A stretch of DNA of 64,000 nucleotides from Nocardia cyriacigeorgica NBRC 100375 (lineage in GTDB: Bacteria; Actinomycetota; Actinomycetes; Mycobacteriales; Mycobacteriaceae). Below are positions 2,611-6,529 of the stretch, in pieces. The stretch covers positions 1-64,000 of the forward strand of contig NZ_BAFY01000132.1 of assembly GCF_000308555.1 (NCBI RefSeq). Direction: 5' to 3'. The position numbers and the translations under genes are program-made. Position 1 is the first letter of the stretch. Every line of letters begins with the position of its first letter. A model generated the notes under the pieces. The model was given only the letters and a program-made list of their open reading frames with translations, did not search any database and had not been told where the DNA came from.

Positions 2611-3022
2611 TTATCGGACGGCTGTTTCCAGGGCAACCGTGAAATCGGCGCCGGTTGCTTCTCTGACGTCGGATTCGCTGACGCCGGGGGCGGTTTCTAC
2701 GAGGACCAGCCCGGCAGGGCGAATATCGAAGACGGCCAGGTCGGTGATGATCCGGTGCACACAGCCCGTTCCGGTCAGGGGCAGGCTGCACTGGTTCGAC
2801 GATCTTGGGTTGGCCGCTGCGCGTGCAGTGTTCCATCATCACGATGACCCGTTTCGCGCCGTGGACGAGGTCCATCGCGCCACCCATGCCTTTGACCATC
2901 TTGCCTGGGATCATCCAGTTGGCCAGGTCCCCGTGGGCGCTCACTTGCATGGCGCCGAGGACGGCGACGTCGACGCAGCCGCCGCGGATCATGCCGAAGG
3001 ATTGGGCCGAGTCGAAGTAGTG
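2611..3022 (-). pseudogene. Remnant of 3-oxoacid CoA-transferase subunit B (ScoB/PcaJ type)
   Basis: Translation of the minus strand gives the core of a CoA-transferase beta subunit: [14 protein letters not shown], then [20 protein letters not shown], then [19 protein letters not shown] and VIVMMEH. After KIVEP the homology moves to another frame, where [20 protein letters not shown] and a normal C-terminus ending in TAA at 2611-2613 are found. The gene has lost its N-terminal half, including the catalytic Glu region, and carries a frameshift near 2780. In intact form it would move CoA between succinyl-CoA and a 3-oxo acid. The 5' edge abuts another remnant on the opposite strand. Confidence 0.75.
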
Positions 3023-3268
3023 GTGGACATCTTCGCCTCGCGGCTGGCGCGGGCCGAACGCCTCGGCACCGATATGACACTGGTCGCGTCGTCATCGCTG
3101 GCTGAAGACATCGCCGAAGCCCTCGGCGGAGCAAGGCCCGACGTGGTGATCGTTGTGGGGGTGGAGTTCGTCGAGGCACCGGTCGGTTTGGCCGAGCTCG
3201 GTAACAGCCTCGACCGCCTCGCGGCCGGTCATGTCGAAGGAAAAGTTCTCATCGATCCCGCGGCATGA
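3017..3268 (+). pseudogene. Remnant of a zinc-type (MDR) dehydrogenase C-terminus
   Basis: The plus frame reads [20 protein letters not shown] then a GGARPDVVIVVGVEF stretch and ends LDRLAAGHVEGKVLIDPAA. This resembles the nucleotide-binding half and the extreme C-terminus of MDR alcohol dehydrogenases, but the part between them is too short, as if an internal segment were deleted. No N-terminal catalytic domain is present. The open frame continues left to 2381, but that part is antisense to the CoA-transferase remnant. Treated as a decayed fragment; the exact family is uncertain. Confidence 0.5.
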
Positions 3269-3283: not shown

Positions 3284-3910
3284 TCACCGCGAATGACCGT
3301 GCAGGGTGAGTGTGTCCTCGATACAGCGAGCGATGAATGATCCATCGATCGGCCTGTCACCCACAATGATGCGGAAATACAGCGGAGCCGAAAGAGTTTC
3401 GAGCACCGCGCGGGGGTCTGTGTCCTGCGGGAGTTCGCCGCGCTCGATGGCCTTGCTGATCACCTGCGAGCTCAGCTCGAACCGATCGCTCCAGAACCGG
3501 CGTCGCGCGGCATCTACTTCGGGATCAGCCGACAGCGCCATCGTCGTGCCCACCAACCGGGTGACACCCGGTAGCTCGATCAGGTGCGTGATCTGTTCAG
3601 CGAGAACCTGCAGATCGGTGCGCAGTGCGCCGGTGTCCGGCAGGGGATTGCCCGCGGCAGCCATTTCGGTAACAGCCGCGGCGATCAGGGCGGTACGGGT
3701 TCCCCAGCGACGGTAGATCGTGGTCTCGGCAACACCGGCCCGCGCCGCAACGTCACCGATGGTCAGGCCCTCGATGCCGTGCTCGGCGACCTGCTCGAGG
3801 GTGGCGGTGAGCACAGCGTGACGCACCCGAGCCGAACGGCCCCCGGTCCGCCTGCGCGGACCGGGGGTCGGTTGCGTCTGCTCATCGACCTCACGCCCTT
3901 GCTGATCCAT
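3284..3910 (-). CDS. TetR/AcrR family transcriptional regulator
   Basis: Intact 208-aa regulator. The N-terminal HTH is typical (GLTIGDVAARAGVAETTIYRRW followed by the GTRTALIAAAV helix). The C-terminal part (RFWSDRFELSSQVISKAIERG, then LYFRIIVGDRPID) resembles the TetR C-terminal domain that usually follows an arginine-rich leader. It lies 66 bp downstream of, and on the same strand as, the exported protein at 3977-4861, so the two may be co-transcribed. It is the obvious candidate reader of the two matching palindromes between the paralogues at 4.9 and 5.1 kb; that link is inferred. Confidence 0.88.
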   Translation of the reverse strand: MDQQGREVDEQTQPTPGPRRRTGGRSARVRHAVLTATLEQVAEHGIEGLTIGDVAARAGVAETTIYRRWGTRTALIAAAVTEMAAAGNPLPDTGALRTDLQVLAEQITHLIELPGVTRLVGTTMALSADPEVDAARRRFWSDRFELSSQVISKAIERGELPQDTDPRAVLETLSAPLYFRIIVGDRPIDGSFIARCIEDTLTLHGHSR

Positions 3911-3976: not shown

Positions 3977-4861
3977 TCAGCGCAGATAGGCCGAGATCCA
4001 GTTGCCGAACTCGCACGCCAAATGCCACTGATGCTCGGCCACATACAGTTGCGGCAGCGCAGCCGGGAAGGCGACTTGGAGCCGGCTGCGGAACCCGCCG
4101 CCGGGCTCGTCGCGGAACTGATGGCGAACACCGCCGATGACGAATCCGTCGGACAATGAGGCGACACCGGAGACGGCGAGTGGGAACGCCGGGTCCGAAG
4201 GCACCATTACCCGTGCGGTGTCGGTGTAGTCGATGAAGAACTGGCTGGCCAGTACCGCGCCGCCGGTTACCTCGATAACCTCCTGACGACCATCGGGCAG
4301 CGTAGCGATGATGTAGTGGTCTGGGCAGGCGTCGGTCCACACGGCGCGGTCGTCGGTCAGCCGGGCGCGGTCGAGCCAGTCGAGAAAGCCCTGAGCTGTG
4401 CCCCGATCGCTGGTGATCTCGGTGATCGAGTACTGCCAGTGCCCGTCCGAGGCCGCCACTGCGGTCCTCGCCGCGACTTCGGACGCGATGAGCTCGCCGG
4501 TGAGTAGTTCTCGCAAGCCATCCGGCCCGATCACCATCCGTGCTCGGGCCAGCGCAGAGCGTGCAGTGGAGATGTCGTCGACAGCGACTTCCAGGCGGGC
4601 CAGCAGCGAGTCGAGTTCGCCGACCAGCGCACCGGCGTAGTCCTTGCGCAAGCGCGCCGCGGCCACCGACAGCCGCCGTCGTTCCCACTCGACGATCTGC
4701 CTCTGATCCAGCATCTTCCCGTCGATGAAGGTGCGTAACCCGGGGCTGACCTGCCGATCCGGTGGAGACGCGAAGGTGGTACCGGTACCGAGACCTGCCG
4801 CCGCCACCGTAGCGGCGGTCGTCCCGGCGGCGCGGATCATGAAGGTTCTCCTGGTCAGCAT
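3977..4861 (-). CDS. Tat-exported protein of unknown function, paralogue A
   Basis: A 294-aa protein with a twin-arginine signal (LTRRTFMIRAAGTTAATVAA, residues 2-21) and probable cleavage after TFAS-type residues near 31. No known domain was recognised. The C-terminal 140 residues share blocks with the divergent gene at 5175: ACPDHY, LPDGRQEV, IDY, GFVIGGVRHQFRD and HQWHLACEFGNWI. The middle is helical and charged. Conserved His, Cys, Asp and Trp in these blocks could be functional. The pair arose by duplication, one copy exported and the other not. Spacing suggests an operon with the TetR gene behind it. Function unknown. Confidence 0.8.
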   Translation of the reverse strand: MLTRRTFMIRAAGTTAATVAAAGLGTGTTFASPPDRQVSPGLRTFIDGKMLDQRQIVEWERRRLSVAAARLRKDYAGALVGELDSLLARLEVAVDDISTARSALARARMVIGPDGLRELLTGELIASEVAARTAVAASDGHWQYSITEITSDRGTAQGFLDWLDRARLTDDRAVWTDACPDHYIIATLPDGRQEVIEVTGGAVLASQFFIDYTDTARVMVPSDPAFPLAVSGVASLSDGFVIGGVRHQFRDEPGGGFRSRLQVAFPAALPQLYVAEHQWHLACEFGNWISAYLR

Positions 4862-4915
4862 CGACCATTTCCTCTCGAGCTTTGGTTGTCATCGCGACGG
4901 CTATCGCGGCATACG

Positions 4916-4938
4916 TAACGCAAGTTTGTCCTGCGTTA
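4916..4938. promoter_or_regulatory. Inverted-repeat operator upstream of paralogue A
   Basis: TAACGCA-N9-TGCGTTA, lying 54 bp before the start codon of the minus-strand gene. The spacer begins AGTTTG, as in the second copy at 5096. Probably a repressor site. Confidence 0.65.
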
Positions 4939-5095
4939 GCGCAGCATGGGTTATCCGCGTCACGCTGTCAATGGTGTGCGCATGATTAATGCCTGAAAAG
5001 GTGGCCTTTATCTGCTCGGTCGAGGGGCTGTCGGCGTGCGTGCGGTCGATGGCGCGTCGCGCCGGGGTTGCGCAACATGCCCCAGAGAGGCATCC
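4939..5095. other. Intergenic region between paralogues A and B
   Basis: The gap between the divergent paralogues (4862-5174, 313 bp) holds the two operators and is locally AT-richer than its surroundings. No supported gene lies in it. A short AAAGG/CCTTT hairpin (near 4997-5011) is visible but too small to call. Confidence 0.5.
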
Positions 5096-5120
5096 TTAAT
5101 GCAAGTTTTGATTGCGTTAA
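5096..5120. promoter_or_regulatory. Inverted-repeat operator upstream of paralogue B
   Basis: TTAATGCA-N9-TGCGTTAA, with the same 9-nt spacer length as the copy at 4916 and a shared AGTTT start to the spacer. It ends 54 bp before the ATG at 5175, the same distance as the other copy from its gene. Confidence 0.65.
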
Positions 5121-5174
5121 AGATCTAGGGTCACAATCCCGCGACCACCCCTTTCGTGAAAGGCCGGACAGTTC

Positions 5175-5969
5175 ATGGTCGATCCGAACGACATCCGCGC
5201 GACCATCGGGCCGCGCGAGGCAACGCGGGATCAGGTACTTGCCTGGGAGTCTCGCCGCGCCGACGCCGTGCTCAGCAAATTCGCCGCCCGCCTCGGCGCG
5301 CTCGGCATGGGCGAGATCCTGCACGACCACACAGTCAGCGAACTACGCGCTGCCTCCCTGGATACGCGCCGGTCTGTATTGCTCTCGCTCAAGGCCCAGC
5401 TCGGTCACGTGGGTACCTACGCGATGCTCAAGCGCGAACTCGCGATTTCGGAACGGATCACCCGGCTCGCGGTCGCAACGAGCAGGGGACGGGCCAAATA
5501 CTCGGTCACCCGGCTGCGCGCCCCCGGCCTGTCGGCCGAACGTTTCGCAGCCTGGTTCGAGAACCTGGTCGTCCTCGATGACGAGGCCGAAATGAACTCC
5601 GCCTGCCCGGATCACTACCTCCTGCGCGGGCTGCCCGATGGGCGCCAGGAAGTCGTCGAGACCACCGGTGGATCGCCTGCTGCGACCCGATTCCTCATCG
5701 ACTATCAGCGCCCAGACGACATCACCGTCCCGGTCGACCCGGCCTACCCGATCCAGATCGTCGGCACCGCACTGCTCGACGACGGCCTGGTCATCGGCGG
5801 GGTTCGCCACCAGTTCCGCGACCGTGACGGCGCGCTCGAAGCACTGCTGACCGCGCAGTTCCCCGCTACCGTGCCTACCAGGAATATCGTTCAACACCAG
5901 TGGCATCTGGCGTGTGAGTTCAGCAATTGGATGATCGCCTCGGCGCCATCCGCGGCGACGACACGATGA
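5175..5969 (+). CDS. Protein of unknown function, paralogue B (no signal peptide)
   Basis: A 264-aa protein homologous to the Tat-exported protein at 3977 across its C-terminal half (SACPDHYLLRGLPDGRQEVV, IDYQ, GLVIGGVRHQFRD, HQWHLACEFSNWM), but starting directly with MVDPNDIRATIG and lacking any signal peptide or membrane segment. It should therefore act in the cytoplasm while its sister acts outside the membrane. The first 90 residues are mainly helical. It is divergent from paralogue A and has its own copy of the operator. It is followed closely by a recombinase remnant, so it may be cargo of a former integrated element. Function unknown. Confidence 0.8.
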   Translation: MVDPNDIRATIGPREATRDQVLAWESRRADAVLSKFAARLGALGMGEILHDHTVSELRAASLDTRRSVLLSLKAQLGHVGTYAMLKRELAISERITRLAVATSRGRAKYSVTRLRAPGLSAERFAAWFENLVVLDDEAEMNSACPDHYLLRGLPDGRQEVVETTGGSPAATRFLIDYQRPDDITVPVDPAYPIQIVGTALLDDGLVIGGVRHQFRDRDGALEALLTAQFPATVPTRNIVQHQWHLACEFSNWMIASAPSAATTR

Positions 5970-5975
5970 CGCTGA

Positions 5976-6503
5976 CCATCAAGCGCTCTGCCGCGACGGA
6001 TGCAATTCCACCCCGACCGGATCGAGCATTCGCTGACCATGCTCGACGGCGCCCAGACCGGCAACATGCCCGCCATCGAGAGTGCACGGCGATCGCTTGC
6101 CGAAGACGACCGCAAACTGTCGCGGTACCGGGCAGCACTGGAAGCGGGCACCGACCCGGCGCTCGTGGCGGGCTGGACCCAACAGGTGCAGCGTGAACGC
6201 CAGCCGACTGCGGCGCAGCTTTCCGCCTAGGAAGCCGAGCAACACCCAGATCAGTGCATGAACATGGAGCAGGTTCACCAGCTTGTGACGTCACTGGGCG
6301 GGCTGGTCCACATACTGAAGGCGGCTGACCCCACCGACAAACTCGAGGTCTACCGGAAACTCGGCCTGAAACTCACATACGACCACAAAAAACGGGTGGT
6401 CGTGGCAGAAACTGCTCCACAACCACCCGTGTGCGTACTGTCTGTGTCCGGAGGGGGACTTGAACCCCCACGCCCGATAAAGGGCACTAGCACCTCAAGC
6501 TAG
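5976..6503 (+). pseudogene. C-terminal remnant of a large serine recombinase
   Basis: One frame, broken by an amber codon at 6228-6230, carries the tail of a serine integrase. The coiled-coil segment (SLAEDDRKLSRYRAALEAG, then TDPALVAGWTQQVQ) is followed after the stop by VHQLVTSLGGLVHILKAADP and LEVYRKLGLKLTYD, blocks typical of the C-terminus of actinobacterial recombinases. The catalytic resolvase domain and zinc ribbon are missing. The frame ends at 6503 inside the antisense of the tRNA-Leu gene, as expected if the tRNA was the attachment site. Not functional. Confidence 0.72.
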
Positions 6504-6529
6504 CGCGTCTGCCATTCCGCCACCCGGAC
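6445..6529 (-). tRNA. tRNA-Leu (anticodon GAG)
   Basis: Read on the minus strand, the 85-nt gene starts GTCCGGGTGGCGGAATGG and has an anticodon arm CTAGC-TTGAGGT-GCTAG with GAG in the loop, a long variable arm (GCCC/GGGC) as in class II tRNAs, and the T arm GGGGGTTCAAGTCCCCC. The acceptor stem closes with TCCGGAC and discriminator A. The CCA end is not encoded. The tail of a decayed serine recombinase overlaps it on the other strand, which suggests past use as an integration site. Confidence 0.95.

Follow-up and report, generated by a model that had tools for sequence, protein, structure and literature searches.

Why would a bacterium keep two divergently transcribed paralogues, one carrying an export signal and the other none, behind what looks like a single regulator? 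The question is raised by a locus of Nocardia cyriacigeorgica NBRC 100375 located in positions 1 to 64,000 of contig NZ_BAFY01000132.1 (assembly GCF_000308555.1, forward strand), a stretch of 64,000 nucleotides (nt) referred to below as the window, to which all coordinates belong. The locus comprises gene A (3977..4861, minus strand), encoding the predicted exported paralogue, gene B (5175..5969, plus strand), encoding the predicted cytoplasmic paralogue, and gene T (3284..3910, minus strand), encoding a TetR-family regulator. We consider it moderately probable that these genes encode a pair of PhlG-like metal hydrolases that act on an aromatic compound in two compartments under TetR control. 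The metal, the chemistry, the substrate, the repression and the export are what we infer; the pairing of the genes, their conservation, the operators and their co-occurrence with T, the predicted fold and an invariant H/E/H/E set are the computed basis.

Divergent paralogues with and without an export signal

Genes A and B are separated by an intergenic gap of 313 bp, and their products (294 amino acids for A, with the N terminus MLTRRTFMIRAAGTTAATVAAAGLGTGTTFASPP; 264 for B) share about 40% identity across residues 7–255 of B, that is, over nearly the whole chain, which ruled out a similarity restricted to the C-terminal part. The signal of A (residues ~1–33) opens with MLTRRTFMIRAAG, continues with an Ala-rich stretch and ends in TFASPP, and the S/T-R-R-x-F motif expected ahead of the hydrophobic stretch is present as TRRTF. 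Judged by this motif, the N terminus of A reads as a typical signal of the twin-arginine translocation (Tat) type, and residues 1–38 of its structural model have a predicted local distance difference test score (pLDDT) below 50, as expected for a signal; B has no such signal. The sequence and the translations thus bear out what had been proposed from the sequence alone, namely divergent paralogues of which one carries a twin-arginine signal and the other does not. That sequence-only reading had also assigned to both proteins a shared C-terminal domain of unknown function; the sharing stands, while the shared part covers nearly the whole chain and is predicted to adopt a fold like that of PhlG and phloretin hydrolase with a conserved H/E/H/E set.

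Comparison of A, B and T with their relatives gave ratios of nonsynonymous to synonymous substitution rates (dN/dS) of ~0.11–0.29 (12 comparisons; ~0.14–0.17 for T), and they are therefore constrained genes. The family of A and B was found in 29 of 148 Nocardia genomes, in 13 of 249 genomes sampled from the order (some of them Nocardia), in 33 of 301 sampled from the family, where it reached 14 of 31 genera, and in 4 of 396 sampled from the phylum. In the relatives, genes were called with our own composition-based caller (which missed the TetR gene of the window) together with tblastn, and the numbers given for neighbouring genes are minimum values. Seven of the 29 family-bearing Nocardia genomes have a divergent A-B pair (G000, which is the genome studied here, G045, G057, G060, G066, G094 and G112), and in other genera such pairs are present in G336, where the signal of A is out of frame with the rest, in G840, in G908 and in G991, where B is probably frameshifted. 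Retention of the pair in other genomes had been set beforehand as a test that could refute the sequence-only reading: further Nocardia genomes and other genera have it, and it is not universal. In G136, A and B lie on separate contigs, and in G125 and G139 the A-T unit is retained and B was not found; in G038 both genes lie close to contig starts (each within ~0.5 kb), so that their adjacency cannot be judged.

In a tree of 48 rows, A forms one clade (100/99) and B another (95/96), TreeKit having warned of long branches among the distant rows. An in-frame RR is present in 15 of the 17 A-type N termini, the two others having KR (L217) or an out-of-frame RR (L094). By eye, none of the 30 B-type rows shows such a signal, several of their starts being truncated or unclear. 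The exported paralogue has repeatedly decayed beside a better-kept B: A is a remnant next to B in six loci (L071, L074, L076, L081, L083 and L084), of which L071 has an N-terminally truncated B and L084 a B cut by the contig end, and L093 holds fragments of both genes. This pattern would suit an enzyme whose export pays off only under some conditions.

Predicted fold and conserved residues

Neither A nor B matched any Pfam family at E values up to 1, and NCBIfam returned one weak match for each, far below cut-off. Likewise, none of 37 family members matched PF18089 at E up to 1, their other Pfam matches being weak and scattered (best 0.011) and set aside, and no PF18089 match was found in the genome studied here. 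The enzyme family is not modelled by the libraries searched. Sequence matches of family profile A1 in the PDB, headed by designed propeller proteins, were weak, confined to short stretches and also set aside.

AlphaFold models, computed from the sequences of the window and of L003–L011 only, reached a pLDDT of 88.6 for B and 78.4 for A, and in both a Bet v1-like helix-grip domain follows helices at the N terminus. The six best Foldseek matches of B (E 8.5e-5 to 7e-4) each belong to a chain of phloretin hydrolase or PhlG. In VIA-align, the same kind of chain leads for B, with 5xey (Z 11.9), 3hwp (11.7) and 5xe5 (11.6) aligned over 175–182 residues at a root-mean-square deviation (rmsd) of 3.7–4.0, N-terminal helices included; other Bet v1 folds reach Z scores of at most 10.9 over 126–143 residues. 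For A, the top three are 3hwp (Z 11.3, rmsd 3.7, 175 residues), 5xey (10.9, 3.5, 167) and 5xe5 (10.6, 3.5, 170), other Bet v1 folds scoring at most 10.0. A Bet v1-like catalytic domain preceded by N-terminal helices is thus found both in the predicted models and in the whole-chain alignments to 3hwp and 5xey/5xe5, and in these model-based comparisons it is the longer coverage, not the small lead in Z, that distinguishes the PhlG-type matches.

Across 37 aligned diverse members, L85, P145, H147, E162, H244 and E248 (numbering of B) are the sole columns without variation. In a set of 70 rows (the 48 of the tree alignment plus 22 from other genera), P145, E162, H244 and E248 are kept in all 70, H147 and H241 in 69, S103 in 68 and H212 in 66. 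In the model of B, H147 and E162 lie on neighbouring strands, and the last helix carries H244 and E248 at a distance of one turn. Aligned to 3hwp and 5xe5, a profile of 12 Nocardia PF18089 proteins (full frames; four partial matches were left out) likewise places a His and a Glu on strands and an H-x3-E on the last helix; the H-x3-E of the A/B family thus matches that of PhlG, phloretin hydrolase and the Nocardia PF18089 proteins. The ligand and catalytic residues of PhlG are H129, E160, H214, H270 and E274, of which H129, E160, H270 and E274 are the metal ligands; these numbers agree with the PhlG chain at an offset of 8. By conservation and by position on the corresponding elements, H147, E162, H244 and E248 are a candidate PhlG-like metal tetrad. 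As the comparison with the PF18089 profile was not significant, A and B are called PhlG-like, and filing them as PhlG members, for which the family-model and profile tests failed, was not adopted.

Palindromes, promoter-like elements and the regulator T

An operator-like palindrome of the TAACGCAAG-N5-CTTGCGTTA family is located upstream of each paralogue. The one in front of A (4916..4938) is a perfect TAACGCA-N9-TGCGTTA situated 54 nt from the start codon, and the one in front of B (5097..5119) reads TAATGCA-N9-TGCGTTA, with one arm mismatch, 55 nt from the start codon; the earlier description of identical TAACGCA/TGCGTTA repeats with a 9-nt spacer at 54 bp from each start was therefore exact for A and slightly off for B. 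Both palindromes are contained in a 31-nt direct repeat (77% identical), and their half-sites stand out as islands of conservation in an intergenic alignment of seven A-B pairs. A scan of the window allowing up to 3 mismatches gave 3 matches against 0.94 expected, a number reached in 4 of 100 shuffles; the A and B sites have 0 and 1 mismatches, and the third match has 3. In the whole genome, TAAYGCA-N9-TGCGTTA with up to 2 mismatches finds the A and B sites (0–1 mismatch) and five others (2 each), a backwards control pattern being commoner than the real one (12 and 14 versus 4 and 7). That the A and B sites are the sole close matches suggests a regulon of two promoters.

The product of T matches the Pfam families TetR_N (6.3e-12; 45.5 bits, cut-off 24) and TetR_C_11 (9.1e-26, likewise above cut-off), and is the candidate repressor of A-T and B. 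Its gene lies on the strand of A, 66 bp behind it, in agreement with the TetR gene placed there by the sequence-only reading. In a survey that scored the best candidates of each genome, T orthologues (at least 61% identity, E at most 6.5e-72) were found in 21 of 148 Nocardia genomes, all 21 among the matches listed falling within the 29 genomes that carry the enzyme family; the next-best TetR proteins had an E value of 1e-46. T adjoins a gene of the A/B family in 20 of these 21 genomes. The exception is G094, whose T lies 1.26 Mb away and whose A-B pair has palindromes at both promoters despite that distance.

The palindrome was tested in 26 loci where T adjoins the enzyme gene or is present in the genome, 22 of them with a T of at least 63% identity and four with one of 51–62%. 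All 22 of the former carry it upstream (30/30 regions, A and B of one pair sharing one intergenic space; 13–18 of 18 positions; p ≤ 0.010), as judged by first-order Markov resampling (300 replicates, p floor 0.003) with a consensus that had been shaped by sites in the same loci. Some start codons were guessed, with non-start triplets for L068 B, L070 B, L088, L089 and L098; the shuffle test covered neither L064 (with 64 nt upstream), L069 and L071 (B truncated at its N terminus), L090–L093, L099 and L100, nor the A remnants except that of L083. None of four loci from genomes lacking T (L077, L078, L079 and L087) has the palindrome (9–11 of 18 positions, p ≥ 0.186), and L096 and L097, with no T nearby, show a weak match (12/18, p 0.040) far from the start. 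Sites persist after the genes have separated, as at the B that stands alone on contig C30 of G136. On contig C40 of the same genome (L062), the T beside A has an in-frame TGA, and both A and the unlinked B retain their palindromes.

Furthermore, 20 loci of other genera were obtained after the consensus had been fixed and were examined for at least 14/18 positions or at least 11/12 core positions. A T-like TetR gene is adjacent in 15 of them and a site is present in 10, all of these among the 15; every site lies immediately in front of the enzyme gene or in the space separating it from the regulator gene, L217 having two. The enzyme gene of L095, a TetR-linked member, is preceded by a different but symmetrical site, TATCGCTAT-ACTTG-ATAGCGATA, which looks like a joint change of operator and regulator. 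The relatives, the shuffles and the other genera rule out the palindromes as a product of chance. Their conservation was the other test set beforehand as able to refute the sequence-only reading: sites are kept in relatives, and their presence or absence follows that of the TetR gene. On this comparative evidence, T is the likely switch of A and B.

Promoter-like elements adjoin both operators. For A, a putative TTGACA-17-CATGCT element (4943..4971, minus strand) would place the operator 4 nt past its -10-like hexamer; the pattern, picked after the site had been seen, matches once in the window against 0.01 expected, and its TTGACA is kept in 6 of the 7 aligned intergenic regions. For B, a weak candidate, TTGCGC-17-CATCCT (5068..5096, plus strand), abuts the operator, and a GCA block adjoining this operator is conserved in the intergenic alignment. 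A strict promoter scan found no promoter. Such elements next to the operators would fit steric repression.

Proposed mechanism, rival explanations and known systems

Next to the module, several relatives have genes for an intradiol ring-cleavage dioxygenase, an iron-containing alcohol dehydrogenase (Fe-ADH) of maleylacetate-reductase size, PcaI/PcaJ, PcaR and a PcaF-like thiolase, with an aromatic-acid-type transporter of the major facilitator superfamily and others among the further neighbours. Across 41 neighbourhoods (40 relative loci plus the window), the dioxygenase cluster c8 appears in at least 6, c5 in at least 9, and c6 and c7 in at least 7 each. The PcaI-family, PcaR-family and thiolase-subfamily models of NCBIfam score above cut-off in these neighbours; hydroxyquinol dioxygenase and maleylacetate reductase are names that we read into two of the others, NCBIfam scores for related names being below cut-offs. 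L096 and L097, members from another family of the order, also border a dioxygenase/Fe-ADH/PcaIJ cluster. The window holds a remnant of a PcaJ-type CoA-transferase gene (2620..3019, minus strand; two pieces in different frames with 76% and 95% identity to c7 in tblastn), which in relatives is an intact neighbour of the module. It also holds a remnant of a zinc alcohol dehydrogenase gene, c11 (3023..3268, plus strand; 75% identity over 3023–3142 in tblastn, its C-terminal end assigned by eye), intact beside T in L063. No dioxygenase match at E 1e-10 was found in the genome, in a search run without a positive-control genome, so that the empty answer shows little. With only scars in the window and no dioxygenase match in the genome, the module seems to outlive the pathway.

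Elsewhere in the window, a tRNA-Leu (gag) gene is located at 6444–6529 on the minus strand, ~475 bp beyond B, near leftover short frames (6000–6227 and 6258–6503) that are possibly the edge of a decayed inserted element; they had been suspected to be recombinase tails, for which Pfam gave no convincing match. A second TetR gene and a divergent glyoxalase-family gene occupy 39–707 and 737–1207.

We propose that the locus is a compact module, complete in itself, which combines the repressor T with two paralogous metal-dependent hydrolases of PhlG/phloretin-hydrolase architecture. B would act in the cytoplasm, and A would fold inside, be exported by the Tat pathway and act outside the membrane. 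T, produced from the A-T unit, would bind the palindromes at both promoters just downstream of the -10 regions and repress A-T and B until a phenolic or acyl-aromatic compound bound T and released both promoters. With the help of a metal, A outside the membrane and B inside would then hydrolyse the bond that joins the acyl group of this compound to the aromatic ring. In several relatives the product would feed the adjoining aromatic ring-cleavage and 3-oxoadipate pathway; in the genome studied here, which has only scars of that cluster, the module may serve detoxification. That one TetR sensor governs this unmodelled PhlG-like family in two forms, exported and cytoplasmic, the compound being attacked outside before entry and again inside, is an idea that we advance only tentatively; the compound would perhaps be a plant or microbial acyl-phenol antibiotic, funnelled to ring cleavage in some relatives.

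Several results weigh against this proposal. On the structural side, the Foldseek template modelling scores of B are low (0.40–0.46), the best Foldseek match of A is Ms6760, with PhlG (3hwp) at rank 12 and phloretin hydrolase (5xey) at rank 36, and PhlG-type chains lead other Bet v1 folds by only ~0.6–1 Z units. The spacing from H147 to E162 is 15 residues versus 31 in PhlG. An hhalign comparison of the A/B family with the 12 Nocardia PF18089 proteins gave a probability of 0.1% and an E value of 0.41; its best path sets H147, E162 and H212 opposite residues of the PF18089 motifs HPDAH, DEYIG and LAHQVRP, the comparison itself not being significant. Family profile A4 found no sequence match in the PDB. 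As for export, the Pfam TAT_signal model matches 1 of 14 rows, at 0.022, and A itself matched no Pfam family. Many loci that have B show a decayed A or none. Of the catabolic neighbours, the genome studied here has scars or no match, and most of the 20 loci from other genera gave no match either. As for the operator, the pattern with up to 3 mismatches matches 116 of 148 Nocardia genomes, the backwards control being commoner in most among the matches listed; since the pattern is unspecific genome-wide at 2–3 mismatches, the evidence rests on position and on match quality near the genes. The unlinked T of G094 (L177) has no such site within its 15-kb stretch, and the T of G136 has an in-frame stop. 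None of the four loci with a diverged T (51–62%) reaches the palindrome threshold (p 0.01): L088 and L089 (T 61–62%) score 11/18, L098 scores 11/18, and L095 has a related site at 12/18 (p 0.043). Five TetR-linked loci of other genera (L221, L222, L223, L226 and L231; TetR identity 39–46%) have no site.

The fold alone would also suit proteins that are not enzymes. A and B could be START/Bet v1-type carriers or sensors of aromatics, A capturing them outside, B buffering or presenting them inside and T responding, and non-enzymatic Bet v1/START proteins do share the fold and fill most of the structural match lists; we nevertheless consider this unlikely, because two His and two Glu that are invariant in 37 members and kept in 69–70 of 70 rows are typical of a metal or catalytic site, and because the longest structural matches are hydrolases. 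A somewhat less improbable alternative retains PhlG-fold metal hydrolases and gives them another chemistry (ester, lactone or decarboxylase type), whose products the adjoining aromatic pathway would use as substrates for ring cleavage. The linkage of the family to dioxygenase/Fe-ADH/PcaIJ clusters in Nocardia and in L096 and L097 speaks for it, and with no link to PhlG at the sequence level the chemistry may have drifted, but the window and most loci of other genera keep the module without that cluster.

The arrangement of the two genes could likewise be explained by ordinary duplication, in which case A would be a superfluous exported copy in decay, with no role of its own, and the mirrored operators would simply be a copied promoter. 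The 31-nt direct repeat that contains both sites and the six loci with an A remnant beside B are what such an origin would leave; however, A is strongly constrained (dN/dS ~0.11–0.24, 4 comparisons), groups as a single clade that has a conserved signal of its own in different genera, and is retained with T in G125 and G139, where no B was found, and we accordingly judge this explanation improbable. It is more improbable still, in our view, that the palindromes belong to another regulator, such as the cupin-HTH (helix-turn-helix) protein or the PcaR of the neighbouring cluster, with T a bystander: the regulators c3 and c10 are indeed nearby in several genomes, yet sites are kept where neither was found in the stretch examined (the window, L061, L067 and L214–L217), are missing in the four tested loci from T-less genomes, and stand beside T in other genera.

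Under the proposal of a TetR-controlled hydrolase pair, an uncharacterised actinobacterial family gains a testable fold, active site, regulator and operator. If the proposal is true, the rare PhlG-type hydrolase architecture extends beyond its Pfam family, and the co-regulated exported and internal enzymes offer a simple system in which to ask why one chemistry is kept on both sides of a membrane. Genome comparison supports well the view in the sequence-only reading of one family split across the membrane under one switch, the domain of unknown function being replaced by a predicted PhlG-like fold.

The nearest described system is PhlG-PhlH of Pseudomonas. According to two reports (PMC8003664, PMC11878095), the TetR protein PhlH represses phlG through an operator that lies between the two genes, and 2,4-diacetylphloroglucinol (DAPG) relieves this repression; phloretin, a plant flavonoid, is reported as a further PhlH signal, and PhlG is a zinc-dependent, Bet v1-like enzyme that cuts a C-C bond. 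The locus described here resembles that system, as predicted from sequence and models, in having a Bet v1-like hydrolase beside a TetR gene with an operator between them, an adjacency found in 20 of 21 T-bearing Nocardia genomes and 15 of 20 loci of other genera. A candidate H/E/H/E metal set, its H-x3-E lying on the last helix, is a further predicted resemblance, and relief by a phenolic ligand would be the expected logic. In contrast to PhlG-PhlH, it is actinobacterial, has two paralogues, one of them with an export signal, and has a shorter hairpin from H to E; it shows no significant sequence relation, and no DAPG synthesis genes were seen. The phloretin hydrolase of Mycobacterium abscessus (5xey, 5xe5) is the best whole-chain match of B, with the same N-terminal helices and Bet v1 domain, but the identity is ~14–15%, and it fits a profile built from PF18089 proteins, whereas A and B have no PF18089 match. 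According to a further report (PMC8562490), Rv1775 of M. tuberculosis is annotated as PhlG-like from its structure.

Within Nocardia itself, 14 of 59 genomes encode PF18089 (DAPG_hydrolase) proteins. The 12 full frames examined (L101–L112) each carry an N-terminal RR motif, which suggests exported PhlG relatives in the genus, so that A is not alone in combining this fold with an export signal. Unlike A and B, these proteins match PF18089 clearly and have longer loops (HPDAH...DEYIG...HCGQE), and they are not profile-detectable homologues of A and B. Like other TetR repressors with TetR_C_11, T combines that domain with TetR_N and has a palindrome of its own kind adjacent, here with two close sites only in the genome. 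Among the best matches in one open literature collection, titles and abstract openings described neither an exported/cytoplasmic pair under a TetR regulator nor a PhlG-like gene in a ring-cleavage cluster. The arrangement had been thought undescribed; its combination of a TetR regulator with a PhlG-type hydrolase is already established in PhlH-PhlG, and what is new relative to that system is the duplicated, exported copy and the unmodelled family to which both paralogues belong.

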